This document shows positions 38,581 to 46,368 of a stretch of 49,059 bases of DNA, piece by piece. The translations under genes and the position numbers were made by a program. This DNA comes from a virus: positions 1-49,059 of IMG/VR virus record IMGVR_UViG_3300042923_001772; one strand, written 5' to 3'. Numbering within the stretch: the first letter of the stretch is position 1; the number at the start of each line of letters is the position of its first letter. The notes under the pieces are model-generated. The model worked only from the letters and a program-made list of their open reading frames with translations, searched no databases and had not been told where the DNA came from.

Positions 38581-40572
38581 ATGGAAGATATAAAGACACT
38601 TTCTATTGACCTTGAAACTTACTCAGACGTGGACCTTAGCAAATGCGGTGTATATCGATATGCAGAATCTCCAAACTTTGAAGTCCTCCTGTTTGGTTAT
38701 GCAGTTAATGGCGGTGCGGTACATGTTATTGACTTAGCCTTAGGGGAGAAAGTCCCAGAAGACATATTAAATGCACTAACCGATGTTAACATAATTAAAT
38801 GGGCATTTAATGCTTCTTTCGAACGTGTCTGTTTATCCTATTGGCTTCGAAAACATTACCCAGATAAGTTTAGTAGCTACAGCACCCCAGAAGACACTGT
38901 TGGAGGTTACCTTGACCCATCTTCTTGGCGTTGCAGCATGATATGGGCTGCTTATATGGGCTTACCGCTTTCACTTGAAGGCGTTGGTTCAGTTCTAAAT
39001 CTAGGTGAACAGAAACTAAAAGGCGGCAAAGATCTCATCAAATATTTCTGTGTTCCATGCAAGGCAACCAAAATAAACGGTGGCCGTACTCGCAACCTGC
39101 CTGCACATGATATGGAAAAATGGTCCTTATTTAAGAAATACAATGTCCGAGATGTTGAAGTTGAACAAGCAGTTAAGAAGCGGCTAGAAAGCTATCCGGT
39201 ACCTGAGTTTATTTGGGATGAATACCATCTGGATCAAGGGATAAATGACAGAGGTATCCTACTAGATATGTCTGTCGTTAAAAACGCCATTGTATTTGAT
39301 GAGAGATCGAAAGAAGAACTCACTGCAGCAATGAAGGAACTTACTAACCTTGATAATCCAAACAGCGTTTTGCAGATAAAACAGTGGCTTTCAGATAATG
39401 GCGTTGAGACCGAATCACTTGATAAAAAGAAAGTCACAGACCTAATAAAGACTGTACCAGAGGAGCAACGTGACGTGCTTCAAATTCGCCAACAGCTTGC
39501 AAAAAGTAGCGTTAAAAAGTATCAGGCCATGCAAAACACCGTCTGCTTAGATGGCAGGGCTCGTGGCATGTTTCAATTTTATGGTGCTTCACGTTCTGGC
39601 CGCTGGGCAGGCAGACATATACAACTGCAAAATCTTCCTCAGAACCATATCCCTGATTTGGAAGATGCACGGTCCCTTGTAAAGCTTGGAGATTATGATG
39701 CAGTAAAACTTCTTTATGAAGATGTGCCGGATACTCTCTCTCAGCTTATCCGAACCGCTTTTATTCCAAGACCAGGATACAAATTTATTGTATGCGACTT
39801 TAGTGCTATCGAGGCTAGGGTTCTCTCCTTCTTAGCCAGGGAGCACTGGCGATTAGACGTATTTGAAAATGATGGTGATATCTACTGCGCTTCCGCTTCT
39901 GCCATGTTCCATGTACCGGTTGAGAAGCACGGAATAAATAGCCACCTCCGTCAAAAAGGCAAAATCGCAGAATTGGCACTTGGATATGGCGGTAGTGTTG
40001 GTGCACTTAAGGCTATGGGCGCGTTGGAGATGGGCCTTACTGAAGAAGAATTGCAGCCGCTGGTTGATTCTTGGAGAGCATCAAACCCAAATATTACTAA
40101 GCTGTGGTGGGATGTTGACAGAAATGTTAAAGAAGCTGTTCGTTTAAGAACACATACCAAAACACATGGCATTAATTTCTACTACCAAAAGGGTATGCTG
40201 TTTATTGAGCTTCCTTCCGGCAGAAGACTTTCCTATGTAAAGCCTAAGATCGAACAGAACCAGTTCGGCGGTGAGTCTGTCACATACGAAGGGACCGGTA
40301 ATACTAAGAAGTGGGAGCGTATAGAAAGTTACGGCCCGAAGTTTACGGAAAATGTTGTCCAGGCAATCAGCCGGGATATCCTGGCCTACGCTATGAAAAC
40401 ACTTCGTCATTGCTTTATCTGTGGTCACGTCCATGACGAGTTAATTATTGAATGTAGTAAGGATGCTTCCCTTGAAGTAGTTTGTAAGCAGATGGGAAGA
40501 ACTCCGCCCTGGATGAAAGGTTTGGCACTAAGAGCAGACGGTTATGAGACACTATTTTATAAGAAAGATTAA
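38581..40572 (+). CDS. Family A DNA polymerase with 3'-5' exonuclease domain
   Basis: A 663-residue replicative polymerase. Exonuclease domain: SIDLETYSDVDL (Exo I, residues about 8-19), WAFNASFERVC (Exo II) and YNVRDVEVEQAV (Exo III). Polymerase domain: VCDFSAIEARVLSFLA (motif A, about 403, with the catalytic Asp), RQKGKIAELALGYGGSVGAL (motif B, about 458) and HVHDELIIE (motif C, about 613). Between exonuclease and motif A, GASRSGRWAGRHIQLQNLP is the usual conserved block. There is no 5' nuclease domain, as in other phage PolA-like enzymes. It is last in the rightward early operon. Confidence 0.95.
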   Translation: MEDIKTLSIDLETYSDVDLSKCGVYRYAESPNFEVLLFGYAVNGGAVHVIDLALGEKVPEDILNALTDVNIIKWAFNASFERVCLSYWLRKHYPDKFSSYSTPEDTVGGYLDPSSWRCSMIWAAYMGLPLSLEGVGSVLNLGEQKLKGGKDLIKYFCVPCKATKINGGRTRNLPAHDMEKWSLFKKYNVRDVEVEQAVKKRLESYPVPEFIWDEYHLDQGINDRGILLDMSVVKNAIVFDERSKEELTAAMKELTNLDNPNSVLQIKQWLSDNGVETESLDKKKVTDLIKTVPEEQRDVLQIRQQLAKSSVKKYQAMQNTVCLDGRARGMFQFYGASRSGRWAGRHIQLQNLPQNHIPDLEDARSLVKLGDYDAVKLLYEDVPDTLSQLIRTAFIPRPGYKFIVCDFSAIEARVLSFLAREHWRLDVFENDGDIYCASASAMFHVPVEKHGINSHLRQKGKIAELALGYGGSVGALKAMGALEMGLTEEELQPLVDSWRASNPNITKLWWDVDRNVKEAVRLRTHTKTHGINFYYQKGMLFIELPSGRRLSYVKPKIEQNQFGGESVTYEGTGNTKKWERIESYGPKFTENVVQAISRDILAYAMKTLRHCFICGHVHDELIIECSKDASLEVVCKQMGRTPPWMKGLALRADGYETLFYKKD

Positions 40573-40578
40573 AAGAAA

Positions 40579-40619
40579 GGCGGTACTGACTTTTACATCA
40601 GCACCGTCTATTTTATTAT
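40579..40619 (+). terminator. Terminator between convergent polymerase and sigma-like genes
   Basis: GGCGGT-A-CTGA pairs with TCAG-C-ACCGTC around an 8-base loop, followed on the plus strand by TATTTTATT. A purine-rich AAAAGAAAG on the other side would give a weaker T-run for the minus strand, so it may work both ways. Confidence 0.7.
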
Positions 40620-40622
40620 GCT

Positions 40623-41120
40623 TTAGATATAGTCTTCCAGACGATCTCTTAAGGATGCCATCAGCTTTTTAAACTGATACTCAAAACTCGACTGCGGAAT
40701 TGACATAATTCTAGCGATTTCACGCTTCGAACGGCCCTCCATAAGTAGTTCGCAGATACGCTGACTATTGGGATCTAGTTCCTCAAGAGCCATAAAGAGC
40801 TCTTCAAGAAGTATCTTTTCTGCAACAATCTCTGCAACATCCTGTGCGTGGTCCTCAACGCTATATCCAGCTTCTTCGAGACCATCTAGTGAAAGGACGC
40901 TGCCTTCCTTAGTGCGACTACATTTAGAGCAATCTTCTGTGCATCTTTTAAGTCCACCCTTACCATTACTAACCTGACAAATTTTCTGCCGATCATTACG
41001 CTTGTGCTCAGCCCAGATCGGACGTTTGTAGGCCCTGTACACCTCTTCGGTAACCTTCACCTCTTGACCATCGATGGTGAGATAATACTTCTTTGTTTCC
41101 TTATTGACTGTGTTTAACAT
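40623..41120 (-). CDS. Sigma-70 region 4-like transcription factor
   Basis: A 165-residue protein. The N-terminal half (KYYLTIDGQEVKVTEEVYRAYKRPIWAEHKRNDRQK, in pieces) and the cysteine cluster KRCTEDCSKCSRTKEG are typical of sigma-like proteins of clostridial conjugative elements and phages. The C-terminal part, LEELDPNSQRICELLMEGRSKREIARIMSIPQSSFEYQFKKLMASLRDRL (in pieces), is a region 4 helix-turn-helix. Region 2 is absent, so it is probably an activator or partial sigma. The frame opens at 41198, but GGAAGGA five bases before the ATG at 41120 marks the start. A hairpin partly covers that binding site, and a long structured leader lies upstream, which suggests translational control. Confidence 0.85.
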   Translation of the reverse strand: MLNTVNKETKKYYLTIDGQEVKVTEEVYRAYKRPIWAEHKRNDRQKICQVSNGKGGLKRCTEDCSKCSRTKEGSVLSLDGLEEAGYSVEDHAQDVAEIVAEKILLEELFMALEELDPNSQRICELLMEGRSKREIARIMSIPQSSFEYQFKKLMASLRDRLEDYI

Positions 41121-41154
41121 TTTTTGTCCTTCCCGCCTTTGGGAGAGAACTATC

Positions 41155-41278
41155 GCAAGGACACAGTCAGGTCTTTTCTGGTACCTCAACTTCGGCAAAA
41201 AGAGCGCAACGAAGTAAGGGTACAGGGTTGTAGATTTGCTCTTTTTACTAGAGTTCTACCAACCGTATGTATCCTTGC
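41155..41278 (-). ncRNA. Structured RNA in the leader of the sigma-like gene
   Basis: Read on the minus strand. P1 is an 11-bp stem, GCAAGGATACA (41278-41268) with TGTGTCCTTGC (41165-41155), one G-U. P2 is 9 bp with one bulged G, GGTT-G-GTAGA (41264-41255) with TCTAC-AACC (41234-41226). P3 is CTG-TACC (41225-41219) with GGTA-C-CAG (41185-41178), continued by ACTTCG (41215-41210) with CGAAGT (41194-41189). The P2 loop has AAAAAGAGC (41246-41238), perfectly complementary to GCTCTTTTT (41205-41197) in the P3 loop, a 9-bp kissing interaction. In all, 42 base pairs fit in 124 bases. The P1 G-U pair would be A-C on the other strand. I cannot match it to a known class. Confidence 0.72.
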
Positions 41279-41286
41279 CTAAGTTG

Positions 41287-41350
41287 CGCACCCGAAGGCT
41301 TAGATTTATTTGAAGCTTTAAGCTTCTATAAATATCATACTTCGGATGCG
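41287..41350 (-). ncRNA. Long upstream hairpin of the same leader
   Basis: Minus strand: CGCATCCGAAG (41350-41340) pairs with CTTCGGGTGCG (41297-41287), 11 bp with one G-U. Inside, ATTTAT pairs with ATAAAT, and GAAGCTT with AAGCTTC (palindrome at 41312-41326). It stacks directly 5' of the three-way-junction RNA. Confidence 0.65.
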
Positions 41351-41378
41351 ATCTTTCTTCGCAGAACGGTGAGTTCCG

Positions 41379-41407
41379 ATTTTATGGTATAAAAAAAGGC
41401 CTTACAA
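41379..41407 (-). promoter_or_regulatory. Promoter of the structured leader and sigma-like gene
   Basis: Minus strand: TTGTAA (41407-41402), a 17-base spacer and TAAAAT (41384-41379). The spacer holds the T-run of the upstream terminator. It gives a leader of about 250 bases before the sigma-like ATG. Confidence 0.6.
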
Positions 41408-41427
41408 CCATCTCTGGTCATAAAGCC
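41391..41427 (-). terminator. Terminator upstream of the sigma-like unit
   Basis: Minus strand: GGCTTTATGACCA and TGGTTGTAAGGCC pair over 13 positions (three G-U pairs) around GAGA and run into seven T residues. The G-U pairs would be A-C on the plus strand, fixing the direction. Confidence 0.85.
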
Positions 41428-41446
41428 ATGTTAATCCATGTTCAAA

Positions 41447-41467
41447 ACCGGAAGTGTGAGTTCCGGT
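41447..41467 (-). terminator. Terminator-like hairpin after the ImmA/IrrE-type gene
   Basis: ACCGGAA and TTCCGGT form a perfect 7-bp stem with a 7-base loop; on the minus strand TTTTG follows. It is 24 bases after the stop of the metallopeptidase gene, followed by the stronger terminator at 41391-41427. Confidence 0.65.
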
Positions 41468-41491
41468 CCAAACAAAACTTTTTAAATAAAT

Positions 41492-43405
41492 TTATAATTC
41501 CTTTCCCCAAGTGTGGTAACCCAGCTCTGTCAATTTTTCATTACACAATTCAAGGCTATCCATGTAGTGGTGCTCGATGATAAATCTGTTGAAGAAGCCT
41601 TCTTCATTCAAAGGATAATTATTGCGTGACTTCTCAATAAGGTCATTACTGAAGATAGGGTGCAGATGAAGGCCAATGCAAATAGCGCAGACGGTTCCTA
41701 AGCTTACATTTTTCTCTTCCTTACGAAGATCTTGAATGTATCTATCGCTTAGTCCTGTTCTTAAAGAAAGTTCCAGGTTCGTCATCTTTCTGCCATCCTC
41801 TTTTTCAATGCGTTTCATGTGAGCATCAAGTGTTCCTGAAAAGGACATTGGGAGGTTACGGTAAATTTCCATTATACGGCCTCCTTCTAACTTCAGTTTC
41901 TTCAACTCTACTGCACGCTGCTCTACATTTTGATTGTCTTCATCATCAATGTAGTTGCATTCGCAATAGGCTACTGCATTAACATCTTTGCAAAGAGAAC
42001 ATTGTGTATAGTAGGCATCACCATGTGCACTGTTTACTTTGAATTTCTGTTTAAACTTAAGGCAGCATTCATCAACATGTTGTCTGGCGTAGGAAGTTAG
42101 AGTACAACCACCGTCTTCTGTTTCTGTTACATACTTCTCATCGTTAATACAAAGCATATGATCAACGTAAATGAAGTCACCCTTTGAAAGTACAGCCTTT
42201 ATAGTATCATCGAAACTGGTCTCGTAGCAAGCATTCTTGGTATCGATAATATAACTTTCGTCCTTCCTCAGCGCTGTAGCCTTAAATGAGAAACTATGCA
42301 AATACTTGCCGTTAACATAATTCCAAACGCCTTGCGCCTGTGAGAAGCCAAGTTCAATGGCACGAAGCTTTGCAGCAAATTTTGAAACAGCAAAGAATTC
42401 TGCCAACTCTTGGATAGCCTCCTCCATGATATCTGACTCAGTTTTTTCTGGGTCTTCAACATGTAGACGGAGCAATATCTCATTTAGTTTTTGTCTTGTA
42501 GTGCTTGCCGGGAGCAATATGCGTGGAGTCAAAGCATTAGCCTGCCATTCTATCCACTGAAGTGCTCCCTCAAGGCCAGTATCCTTCTGACGCGTATGCT
42601 CTATAACCTCACAGGTAAGAGAATTGATGTCGCTGTTTAACAACTTCTGTAGCTCGAAGAATTTATCATGACGATCCCAATGCACACACTCATGCACTAC
42701 TGTGTTATTACGTGAGCCGATGTTACGCATGAAGTATATGTCAGGATTTAAAAGTATAGTTCCTGGATCAATGGTCTGTGAGACCACCTCTCCATCCTCA
42801 TTAAAAACATCAACCGTTGTTTCGGCAAAATAGGTCTTACCGAAAATATTACTCGGAAGTGGTGCCTCATAAAGCTCAAGACCCATATTAAACATGAGCT
42901 CATTAAGTGGAATGGGCATAGGCTCCTTTAGTGCTTGTCTACAATATTTGTATAAAAACTTTTCCGCTTCTTTCTCAAGGTCCTCGGTATAAAGATAAGG
43001 AACCAGATATTTTGATAGCGTCGAGTTCTTATCAAATTTATCTGCATAATAATCATCAATACCAGTTATGGTAACCATATTTAGGCCATCGCTTAAGTAA
43101 CCTGTGAAAGTAAGAGTGTACCAAGGATTCTTATAATCAGCATCATAATCTCTTTTTCCAATACCCTTAAGAATAACGTCCGCCTCTACTGCTGCGTTGA
43201 AAATAATCAAGTTTCCCTCTGTAGAATGGAAGGACACAGTTTTTACATGTATGTCGTCTACCTGGAAGTAAGATGGGTCTAAAACTGTATATGAATAAAA
43301 GCCATTATTCCGGCCTCTATTCAATATGAGGCCGGTGATGGCACGGTGTATATCGTTATAGTACTTATCCTCAAGATATTTTTCAAACGAAGCATATTGT
43401 TGCAT
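41492..43405 (-). CDS. ImmA/IrrE-type metallopeptidase with helix-turn-helix C-terminus
   Basis: A 637-residue protein. The N-terminal 190 residues are a beta-rich domain of unknown role. The zinc peptidase site is VVHECVHWDRHDKFFELQKLL (HExxH at about residue 238), followed by a substrate-channel helix and EWQANALTPRILLP, the E..A...A..LL block of the ImmA/IrrE (DUF955) family. A cysteine-rich part (VDECC, QCSLCKDVNAVAYCEC) may bind zinc. The C-terminal 100 residues (TNLELSLRTGLSDRYIQDLRKEEKNVSLGTVCAICIGLHLHP, in pieces) form an XRE-like DNA-binding domain. Known relatives cleave phage or element repressors. It follows hsdR by 15 bases, so it is probably co-transcribed with the restriction system. 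Confidence 0.82.
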   Translation of the reverse strand: MQQYASFEKYLEDKYYNDIHRAITGLILNRGRNNGFYSYTVLDPSYFQVDDIHVKTVSFHSTEGNLIIFNAAVEADVILKGIGKRDYDADYKNPWYTLTFTGYLSDGLNMVTITGIDDYYADKFDKNSTLSKYLVPYLYTEDLEKEAEKFLYKYCRQALKEPMPIPLNELMFNMGLELYEAPLPSNIFGKTYFAETTVDVFNEDGEVVSQTIDPGTILLNPDIYFMRNIGSRNNTVVHECVHWDRHDKFFELQKLLNSDINSLTCEVIEHTRQKDTGLEGALQWIEWQANALTPRILLPASTTRQKLNEILLRLHVEDPEKTESDIMEEAIQELAEFFAVSKFAAKLRAIELGFSQAQGVWNYVNGKYLHSFSFKATALRKDESYIIDTKNACYETSFDDTIKAVLSKGDFIYVDHMLCINDEKYVTETEDGGCTLTSYARQHVDECCLKFKQKFKVNSAHGDAYYTQCSLCKDVNAVAYCECNYIDDEDNQNVEQRAVELKKLKLEGGRIMEIYRNLPMSFSGTLDAHMKRIEKEDGRKMTNLELSLRTGLSDRYIQDLRKEEKNVSLGTVCAICIGLHLHPIFSNDLIEKSRNNYPLNEEGFFNRFIIEHHYMDSLELCNEKLTELGYHTWGKEL

Positions 43406-43420
43406 AGGCAGACCTCCCTA

Positions 43421-46330
43421 TTAATAATACTGTTCAATGTAGCTGTAAGCCTTATCGAATACTTCCTTATCCTTAATCTTATACTTAATCCATATGACGC
43501 TACGTAGTGCTTTCTTTACTTCATTTTTACCTGTAGTTGTTCTTTGCCAACCATCAAAACGAACAATCTTTACAATGTCGTCGATATCTGCAACGATCCG
43601 CTCAACAATGATAGGAGTTTTATCATTCTTAGCTCCTTTAAAGAGTTCTGTTAGTGCTGCTTTACCACGATCAATTTCTTCCTCCGGCACAACTTCCTTC
43701 TCTGCCTGCGCTGCTTCTTTTGCGAGTTCGAGTAAGAGCTTCAGAAACTCAATGCTATTAATCAGGCCCTGTTCATGACGTTCACGGAGTTCTTCAAGCT
43801 TCTCTCCTAGCTTTACAAATTTAGGGTCATTTGTATGTTCGCGAATTTTAGCAACTAAATCGATCTCTACCTTCATGGTTGTCTTCTTGATATCCTTCTG
43901 CTTACGGATAAACTCGTCAATCAGGTCTGCATCTAACGTTAGAATATCAAGATCATCATGAACTTCGCCAACTTCTATGTTTGAGTGAACAAGCTCCAAC
44001 GTCTTAGCGCCAAGAGCAGCCCATACAAGCGCACCACGGTTGTCAGTCGGCTTTACAGACTCATATACTTTAGTTAGCCATACATAGTCAAATTTGTATT
44101 TATCAAGGAATGGATCAGGGGACAGCGCATCCCAAGCTCTATTAAGAACTCGGTAATCTGCTGCGAACGCATCTTTATCCTTATTTGTAGGTATACACTC
44201 CTGTGCTGCAAGTAAACCTTCCCAGCCTTCAACGGTACGGTCAACTCCCATAAAGTAGCTCAGGCATTTTCTAAGAAGTGCAGGAACCTGCTTCTTAACT
44301 TCTTCGATATTAGTGATAACTTTCTTCATGCTGGCTTCATCAAAGTCCAAAGCCTTAGCAACATTATCAAAAATACCGATGTAGTCTACAATTAGTCCGT
44401 GTGTTTTACCTTCATCATAAGTACGGTTTGTACGGCAGATAGCTTGCAGAAGGTTATGATCCTTCATAGGCTTATCCAAGTACATTGCTTGAAGAATAGG
44501 AGCATCAAATCCTGTTAAAAGTTTAGATGTTACAATGACAAGCTTCAGAGGATTGCTCTTATCACGGAACTGATCCAGAACCTTTGCTTCCTCATCACGA
44601 CTGCGGCGATACTTCTTATAACGGTCTTCCTTATCATTATTGGTGTCCATTACGATTGTAGTTGCTTCAGGAGGAAGCAGCTTATCCAGCTCTTCCTTAT
44701 ACTTAAGGCAGCATTCACGGTCGTATGCAACGATCTGTCCCTTATACCCGTTAGGCTCAATCTTCTCTTTATAATGCTTTACGATGTGTTCACAAACTTT
44801 GCGGATACGTTTAGGATCATACATGATAGCCTTCATATTTACGCGTTTGGAAAGCTCTGCACGGTCTGCATCTGAAAGTGTTTCTGTAAGAGCATCAAAT
44901 TCAGCATCTATCTTGTCCTTATCAACATGCAGATCTACTGGAACCGGCTCAAAATTTAGCGGTAGAGTTGCATTATCTCTGATGGAATCCGAGAAAGTAT
45001 ATCGGCTCAAATAACCACTCTTATCTTCTGTTGCACCAAAGGTACGGAATGTATTCTTATCAATACGGTTAATAGGAGTACCAGTAAGTCCGAAGAAGAA
45101 AGCATTTGGAAGTGCTGCGCGCATCTTTTCACCGAGGTCACCTTCCTGAGTTCTATGTGCTTCATCGACCATGATGATTATGTTATCTCTTAGATTGAGA
45201 ACACCTTCAACATCGCCAAAGCGGAAAATAGTCGTAATGGCAATCTTACGAATATCCTGCTTGAAGAAGTTCTCAACATCTTCCTTCGTAGCAAGTGACA
45301 CTAAGTTAGGAACATCAGAAGCATTAAAGGTTGCTGTAATTTGTGTTTCTAAATCAAGACGATCATCAACTATTACAACTGTCGGGTTCTTAAGCTCAGG
45401 GATCATACGAAGCTTCTGTGCAGCAAATACCATCAGCAACGACTTACCAGAACCCTGGAAATGCCAGATAAGGCCTTGCTTAGGATATCCGGCAACAACA
45501 CGTTGCACAATAAGGTTAGCGCCTTCATACTGCTGATATCGGCAGATAATTTTGTACTTAACATGCTTCTTATCAGTTGCAAAAAGGGTAAAGAACTGGA
45601 AAATATCCATAATCTTCTCAGGCGTAATCATATCGCCTACGCTTACTTTAACATCGGCAAGACTACCTTCTGACTTATGGTCAGGAGTATGCCAAGGTCC
45701 CCACATATTAATAGGCATTCCTACAGAACCATAGCGATAGCATTTACCTTCAGTAGCAAAGTTGAATACATTAGATACGAACATCTCAGGAATACTCTTT
45801 TCATAGGAGGCTATATCGCTGGCAGCGTCTAACCAGGTTATAGCATTACGTACCGGAGTCTTTAGCTCACCGATAGCAATTGGGAAACCATTGATCAGTA
45901 GAACAATATCGAGACGCTTGCCACCCTCAGCCTGAGGGTAAACCCACTGGTTAGTAACTACGTATTCATTAAGCGCTAAATCTTCTTTTCGCATTGTGCC
46001 AAAAAATCGAATCGGAATCATTCGACCATCTTTGCCAAAGGGATAGGCGTTTTCCTCAAACACCATTTTCTTAAAGAGCTCATTCTGGGTGATAAGGTTA
46101 CGTGGCTGCACCGACAGAATGATTGTTCGCAGTTTATATATGACCTCATCTGCACGGGACGGTTCTTCTGCAATCTCCGGGTTTAAGCGGATAAGTGCCT
46201 CTTTGACCATTGGCTCTACCATGACATCAGAATAAATTCGAGGCAGCTCTTCTGCAGGGATATAGTTCCATCCATTGCCCTTTAGAGTTGAGATAACCAT
46301 CTGCTCTATTGTATTATCTTCATTAAACAT
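43421..46330 (-). CDS. hsdR: Type I restriction enzyme R subunit
   Basis: About 969 residues. The N-terminal nuclease domain has RLDIVLLINGFPIAIGELKTP (the D...ExK catalytic pattern, about residues 145-165). The motor part has WHFQGSGKSLLM (Walker A, about 300), VIVDDRLDLETQI, MVDEAHRTQEGDLG (about 395), FFGLTGTPI, and LVIVTSKLLTGFDAP with QAICRTNRTYD. It translocates DNA in an ATP-dependent way and cuts away from the recognition site, working with HsdM and HsdS. Start choice: a TTG start five codons earlier overlaps the GGAGG binding site; the ATG at 46330 has correct spacing. No frameshift or active-site loss is seen. Confidence 0.95.
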   Translation of the reverse strand: MFNEDNTIEQMVISTLKGNGWNYIPAEELPRIYSDVMVEPMVKEALIRLNPEIAEEPSRADEVIYKLRTIILSVQPRNLITQNELFKKMVFEENAYPFGKDGRMIPIRFFGTMRKEDLALNEYVVTNQWVYPQAEGGKRLDIVLLINGFPIAIGELKTPVRNAITWLDAASDIASYEKSIPEMFVSNVFNFATEGKCYRYGSVGMPINMWGPWHTPDHKSEGSLADVKVSVGDMITPEKIMDIFQFFTLFATDKKHVKYKIICRYQQYEGANLIVQRVVAGYPKQGLIWHFQGSGKSLLMVFAAQKLRMIPELKNPTVVIVDDRLDLETQITATFNASDVPNLVSLATKEDVENFFKQDIRKIAITTIFRFGDVEGVLNLRDNIIIMVDEAHRTQEGDLGEKMRAALPNAFFFGLTGTPINRIDKNTFRTFGATEDKSGYLSRYTFSDSIRDNATLPLNFEPVPVDLHVDKDKIDAEFDALTETLSDADRAELSKRVNMKAIMYDPKRIRKVCEHIVKHYKEKIEPNGYKGQIVAYDRECCLKYKEELDKLLPPEATTIVMDTNNDKEDRYKKYRRSRDEEAKVLDQFRDKSNPLKLVIVTSKLLTGFDAPILQAMYLDKPMKDHNLLQAICRTNRTYDEGKTHGLIVDYIGIFDNVAKALDFDEASMKKVITNIEEVKKQVPALLRKCLSYFMGVDRTVEGWEGLLAAQECIPTNKDKDAFAADYRVLNRAWDALSPDPFLDKYKFDYVWLTKVYESVKPTDNRGALVWAALGAKTLELVHSNIEVGEVHDDLDILTLDADLIDEFIRKQKDIKKTTMKVEIDLVAKIREHTNDPKFVKLGEKLEELRERHEQGLINSIEFLKLLLELAKEAAQAEKEVVPEEEIDRGKAALTELFKGAKNDKTPIIVERIVADIDDIVKIVRFDGWQRTTTGKNEVKKALRSVIWIKYKIKDKEVFDKAYSYIEQYY

Positions 46331-46368
46331 AAACGTTTCCTCCAATCATTATGTTTTTTATATCTATG

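Follow-up and report, generated by a model that had tools for sequence, protein, structure and literature searches.

A conserved leader RNA of sigma-like genes that probably switches between two folds in phages and genomes of Clostridia and their relatives

The virus record IMGVR_UViG_3300042923_001772 is temperate-phage-like: the window, by which we mean the whole analysed stretch of 49,059 nucleotides, carries genes for terminase, portal, major head protein, helicase/primase, exonuclease, an annealing/single-stranded-DNA-binding protein and DNA polymerase. On its minus strand it also encodes a sigma-like protein that matches phrog_13787 (E 4e-36) and, under the curated cut-offs, the sigma-70 family model TIGR02937 (E 2.4e-8) and Pfam Sigma70_r4_2 (E 0.004). 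The 3' end of this gene adjoins a terminator-like hairpin close to the end of the polymerase gene, so the gene is probably transcribed alone. Immediately upstream of its leader lies a gene for a 637-aa protein (41492-43405, minus strand) that matches phrog_4031, a family of unknown function (E 5e-166), and beyond it one for a 974-aa protein (43421-46345, minus strand) that, judged by eye, looks like a type I restriction subunit. The question raised by this locus is whether the leader is a structured cis-regulatory RNA, as a preliminary description had proposed, and what such an RNA would do for the gene behind it. The strands that matter for the answer are the following, all on the minus strand.

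40623-41120 (-): sigma-region-4-like regulator gene, 165 aa, an open reading frame with a ribosome site
41125-41134 (-): D, the ribosome binding site, GGGAAGGACA, of which AAGGACA would pair with C in the closed state
41155-41165 (-): C, UGUGUCCUUGC, the putative switching strand, partner of A (open state) or D (closed state)
41181-41185 (-): E, GGUAC, partner of B (GUACC), at the position of the Z hairpin loop of other clades
41190-41210 (-): Y, 3' strand of the long X:Y helix, GUUGCGC (41204-41210) and CCGAAG (41190-41195), separated by a U-rich internal loop
41216-41224 (-): B, UGUACCCUU, partner of A (closed) or E (open)
41226-41264 (-): H, the hairpin between A and B, earlier called P2
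41268-41278 (-): A, GCAAGGAUACA, partner of C (11-bp stem) or B
41283-41297 (-): X, 5' strand of X:Y, CUUCGG (41292-41297) and GCGCAAC (41283-41289)
41340-41350 (-): upstream strand CGCAUCCGAAG, which can pair with X at 41287-41297, a local competitor of X:Y if transcribed
41141-41150 (-): GUUCUCUCCC, which can also pair with the ribosome binding site (41126-41134), in the window's clade only
41106-41113 (-): ACACAGUC, within the beginning of the gene, able to pair with GACUGUGU (41161-41168) beside C
41197-41246 (-): the complementary 9-mers AAAAAGAGC (41238-41246) and GCUCUUUUU (41197-41205), whose function is unsupported

Protein searches found relatives whose identity ranged from 92% down to about 27%; the leaders of some had diverged too far for BLAST alignment. 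By eye and by folding, the leaders of the relatives share one order of strands: X, A, H, B, Y, Z, C and D, the last being the ribosome binding site. MAFFT alone misaligned the divergent leaders; the models R1 and R2 were built from a hand alignment with N padding, and R3 from model-aligned matches rather than from the hand alignment. With E-values that are rough for these models, R1, made from seven hand-aligned leaders, recovered the left-out leaders L056 (E 2e-4) and L060 (E 8e-4), and R3 recovered the left-out L030 (E 7e-5). Of 391 Clostridia genomes, 10 had a match to R2 at E 0.05 or below (eight of them at 2e-5 or below), and R2 also matched 6 of 299 genomes from one family. R3 matched 24 of 226 genomes of one order, with three copies in one genome, and, among 199 genomes from the phylum of G003, it matched 8, probably falsely in one case. 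An 18-base piece of the RNA matched 47 viral contigs. Two matches, L087 and L148 (a weak genome match before a QueT-like gene), look like false positives.

The carriers are phages and genomes of Clostridia and their relatives, among them Anaeromicropila populeti (L003), Peptoclostridium acidaminophilum (L060), MAGs of Gracilibacter (L002) and Desulfitobacteriaceae (L004), and phages from the human gut filed under Ca. Heliusvirales (L055-L057, L059). Several loci had features of their own. The Peptoclostridium plasmid record has two group II intron maturase genes beside its sigma-like gene (L060, 1331-4514), and L139 contains, at 605-701 on the minus strand, a match to the pemK RNA family (RF02913, E 4e-7), within a genome region that also carries a copy of the leader RNA. 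In L141 (335-496; PV036425.1, 15711-15872) and in PV036431.1 (15255-15416), a small hypothetical protein is annotated over the leader RNA; since the frame is not conserved, it is probably no gene.

For the comparison of helices, we aligned 70 leaders to the model (alignment A9); 53 of them are distinct and 35 fall below 85% identity. In A9, 37 of the 48 model pairs have changes on both sides, in 269 cells; the slid controls never exceed 22 pairs and 82 cells. Because A9 was fitted to its own structure, pairings outside the model provide the fairer test. A:C is such a pairing, and it had 32 double-change cells (at most 27 when slid) and was 81% paired (at most 57% when slid). We also used a register-free strand-swap test, in which the pairing energy of a strand with its own partner is set against its energy with partners from other sequences, on the 35 representatives below 85% identity. 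The permutation has no tree term, and unrelated strand pairs are null: this held for the control pairs A:D, B:C, X:C and Y:D. Cognate strands paired far better than swapped ones for X:Y (z -8.1; outer half alone, z -6.9), A:C (z -8.4), C:D (z -6.6) and B with the Z loop (z -8.7), a pairing that played no part in building the alignment, as well as for the hairpin stems H (z -9.5) and Z (z -7.1). The A:B signal was weaker (z -2.7, p 0.008), in a test that is low in power because the A and B strands hardly vary. An eight-clade version of the test agreed with these results, its X:Y row being noisy with the window's Y mislocated, an error from which the test on 35 representatives is free. Segments GGAUAC, GUACC and UUGCGC are near-invariant among the representatives. 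Two further candidates were discarded, namely P0, a hairpin of X on itself, as a part of the open state (z -1.2, 35 representatives), and a hairpin between C and D (z -0.4 in a column-based test).

Comparison of relatives thus shows that the leader RNA is real and conserved, and that compensating changes have preserved X:Y, A:C, H, Z, B:Z-loop and C:D. The structured cis-regulatory leader proposed earlier for the sigma-like gene is supported, and so are two of its stems: the 11-bp closing stem (41268-41278 with 41155-41165) is A:C, and the hairpin P2 is H. Another stem, the 6-bp ACUUCG/CGAAGU (P3), can be drawn, but its CGAAG pairs with X in the relatives. The 11-bp upstream hairpin (41340-41350 with 41287-41297) and a hairpin covering the ribosome site (41141-41150 with 41126-41134) can both be drawn as described; the strand of the former is kept in four near relatives read by eye and not in most clades. 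As an overall reading, the preliminary description was right about a leader RNA on the minus strand with a closing stem and no named class, and wrong or unsupported on the partner in a kissing contact, the likeness to purine riboswitches and the promoter; the contacts that relatives conserve are X:Y and B:Z-loop.

The strand deserves separate mention. Against dinucleotide shuffles, the folding energy of the 280-nt leader is lower by 4.9 SD and that of the opposite strand by 5.1 SD; as both strands score alike, folding energy alone cannot pick the strand, and we rejected it as proof. The homologues do so instead. In well-paired columns there are 205 G-U cells against 52 A-C cells, which indicates that the RNA is the sense-strand transcript and agrees with the earlier assignment of the structure to the minus strand. 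The promoter placed earlier at 41407-41379 fared worse: it scores 9/12, shuffles also reach such scores, and near relatives do not keep its -10 element. All four near relatives that were read do keep a TATGAT found at 41334-41339. If this is used as the -10 element, the leader would be shorter and the upstream hairpin would not be transcribed.

What the preliminary description missed is that the 3' strand of the closing stem, C, also pairs with the ribosome binding site, so that two folds compete. Strand C can serve either A:C or C:D, but not both at once. A:B is incompatible with A:C and with B:Z-loop, and X:Y fits both states and crosses A:C. With A:C and C:D both supported, the leader has mutually exclusive helices over the ribosome site, one of the features that mark riboswitches as a functional class, another being direct ligand binding that alters expression. 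We consider it likely that the leader is a conserved two-state RNA switch that acts on translation and usually also on transcription. In the proposed open state, X:Y and A:C would form a pseudoknot and B would pair with the Z loop, giving, on the pairing map, a double pseudoknot that leaves D free, and the sigma-like protein would be made. In the proposed closed state, A would pair with B and C with D, and the ribosome site would be hidden.

The energies are consistent with such an exchange. Summed mean duplex energies for A:C plus B:Z-loop and for A:B plus C:D were about -22.7 versus -18.5 kcal/mol in the 35 representatives and -28.5 versus -25.5 kcal/mol in the eight-clade test, and a difference of a few kcal/mol between the two strand sets is what would be expected of a switch. 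In nested folding, which scores no pseudoknots, the closed state was lowest in all 16 leaders folded, with the open state 2 to 20 kcal/mol higher, and in most of the 16 the ribosome site was more exposed in the open state. Among the observations that speak against a two-state view, A:B, which the closed state requires, reaches a z of only -2.7, and no B:E pairing could be made out in L012 and L056. What is firm in this account is the structure together with its conservation; the two-state mechanism is a strong inference.

Most relatives have a U-run behind Z, and the switch would probably also halt transcription there. Of the 35 representatives, 23 have a stable Z hairpin with 4 or more U in the 8 bases behind it, compared with 13 of 105 shuffles, and this U-run also forms the 5' end of strand C. 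It is a better candidate than the U-run after Y, which we rejected as a terminator because it is not conserved (for example, CCCAAAUUAGG in L064). The window's clade has lost both the Z stem and the terminator, and L012 also has no terminator. Most members therefore probably act on both transcription and translation, and the window's clade on translation alone. There, the B:E pairing is only 5 bp (GUACC/GGUAC), and the predicted exposure of the ribosome site rises just from 0.21 to 0.38, as an extra strand can cover the site even with A:C formed. The complementarity of 41106-41113 to the strand beside C could add to closing in this clade; like the upstream strand on X and the pairing of 41141-41150, it is a putative, clade-specific pairing.

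Leaders of another kind were seen at other sigma-like genes. A second leader type (L041, L042, L022, L050, L051 and L077) has a long inverted repeat round a strong terminator-like hairpin, with a 3' strand that has a second possible partner close to the ribosome site; the sequence is different, and the strand logic looks similar. The unlike leaders of the sigma-like genes of L058, L067, L011, L021 and L025 each contain one strand whose complement occurs twice, in an upstream strand and in the ribosome binding site, as illustrated by GAAACGGAG/CUCCGUUUC in L058.

We then considered the genes downstream of the RNA. In nearly all matches it lies directly before a sigma-region-4-like gene. When 54 proteins were compared (53 downstream of the RNA and the window's own), 52 fell into one similarity group, sampled members of which carry sigma-70 region 4 signatures, several above Pfam cut-offs; the other two (L137 and L140) are Cro/CI-like HTH proteins. 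Further matches likewise precede sigma-like genes. RNA identity and protein identity have an overall rank correlation of 0.38. Under autoregulation, RNA and protein should diverge together, and despite this correlation they do not in L135 and L120, whose RNAs are 95% identical and whose downstream proteins are 23% identical; other such pairs exist. Binding by the sigma-like protein, which had been suggested earlier, is thus unlikely as a common principle, near-identical RNAs preceding proteins that are 20 to 30% identical, and a shared external signal is likelier than autoregulation. The trigger would most likely be something that many hosts or infections have in common, a molecule or a factor, and would act by stabilising or blocking the pseudoknot.

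What kind of signal this might be separates the readings of the switch. A narrower form, which we put forward tentatively, is a riboswitch proper for a small molecule or ion, with the X:Y/A:C pseudoknot and B:Z-loop as the aptamer and a ligand that reports the state of the host. The RNA might then represent a new ligand-responsive riboswitch class of phages and mobile elements of Clostridia-type bacteria, in which a double-pseudoknot aptamer reads a host or infection signal and turns on sigma-like regulators through the terminator and the ribosome binding site. The compact multi-pseudoknot fold with its near-invariant GGAUAC, GUACC and UUGCGC segments, the occurrence of one RNA before proteins 20 to 30% identical, and the many members that have both a terminator and ribosome-site masking are all in keeping with this reading. 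On the other hand, it comes without a ligand candidate, the regulator genes downstream give no metabolite hint, and GGAUAC and GUACC may be fixed solely through having two pairing partners each.

Somewhat less probable, in our judgment, is that the leader is the binding site of a protein or RNA factor made by host or phage, such as a repressor, an antiterminator, a ribosomal protein or a small RNA. Protein-mediated attenuation in leaders is common, and an RNA shared by many mobile elements is consistent with a host factor. However, autoregulation by the sigma-like protein fits badly with the L135/L120 pair, and no conserved single-stranded protein site stands out. An improbable alternative is a ligand-free kinetic timer, in which folding order and transcription speed choose the state: the alternative strand pairings are near-balanced, and strand C and the ribosome site are the last to be transcribed, but the conserved fold appears more elaborate than a delay would require.

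Slightly more doubtful still is leader-peptide attenuation, in which a ribosome would translate a short frame within the leader. A looks like a ribosome site in some members, where UUG and a frame open to the gene follow it, one frame is free of stops in 10 of 26 leaders (about 2.9 expected from shuffles), and a small protein is annotated there in two phage records. Against this, 9 of the 26 clusters have no start codon near A, the frame has 10 codons or fewer in 6 and is fully open in 6, and leader lengths fall in all three classes modulo 3. Across the 26 clusters, a search for a conserved translated short frame found that neither start codon, length nor frame is conserved.

The structure drawn in the preliminary description, a three-way junction held by 9-bp kissing loops of P2 and P3, is very improbable. 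The 9-mers are indeed complementary in the window and in two near relatives, L008 and L010, but across the relatives cognate strands pair no better than swapped ones (z -0.4, p 0.35) and L002 has changes that break the pairing and are not compensated. For each of the two strands another partner is better supported. The AGAG of one 9-mer is part of the P2 tip stem in the predicted fold, and the other 9-mer overlaps Y, which is paired with X in the relatives. Functionless chance folding, for which one could cite the equal stability of the opposite strand, is hardly credible and is refuted by comparison, given compensating changes over 53 distinct sequences and models that recover left-out relatives.

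A scan of the whole window against Rfam 15 gave no match at the curated gathering score, in line with the earlier statement that no named class fits, and at permissive thresholds the leaders of the window and its relatives gave nothing relevant in Rfam 15. In the part of the literature covered, we found no report of this leader RNA. As a recurrent RNA absent from the RNA family databases searched, it looks like an undescribed gene switch, and it would add to Rfam a large pseudoknotted RNA class that is missing there. A complex RNA common to many phages and elements, almost always before a transcription regulator, suggests a common signal that times mobile-element expression. The covariation map makes this testable by naming the pairs to disrupt and repair, and every member of the family, phage or element, could be used.

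Comparison with known systems places the leader RNA among several without equating it with any. The purine riboswitch (Rfam RF00167) likewise has a closing stem round hairpins with loop contacts, but the leader RNA is larger and has the crossing helices X:Y and A:C; the likeness proposed earlier is not supported, as the region 40500-41600 of the window had no Rfam match at E up to 10 and the P2-P3 loop contact is not conserved. With ribosome-site-masking riboswitches in general it shares a 5' leader position, a pseudoknotted conserved core and a strand exchange that would hide or free the ribosome site; it differs in that it would regulate regulators of phages and mobile elements and matches no Rfam family in sequence and fold. 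The vmlR leader of Bacillus subtilis also combines transcription and translation attenuation within one leader and requires a translated upstream reading frame (PMC9226507), whereas no upstream reading frame is conserved in the leader RNA. In the fhsA motif (WRC-63-1), the loop of the terminator hairpin may pair with an upstream hairpin, which was suggested to prevent termination, with a folate-related ligand suggested by the authors (PMC11109978). The leader RNA would use a comparable loop pairing, but it precedes a sigma-like gene and would add masking of the ribosome site.
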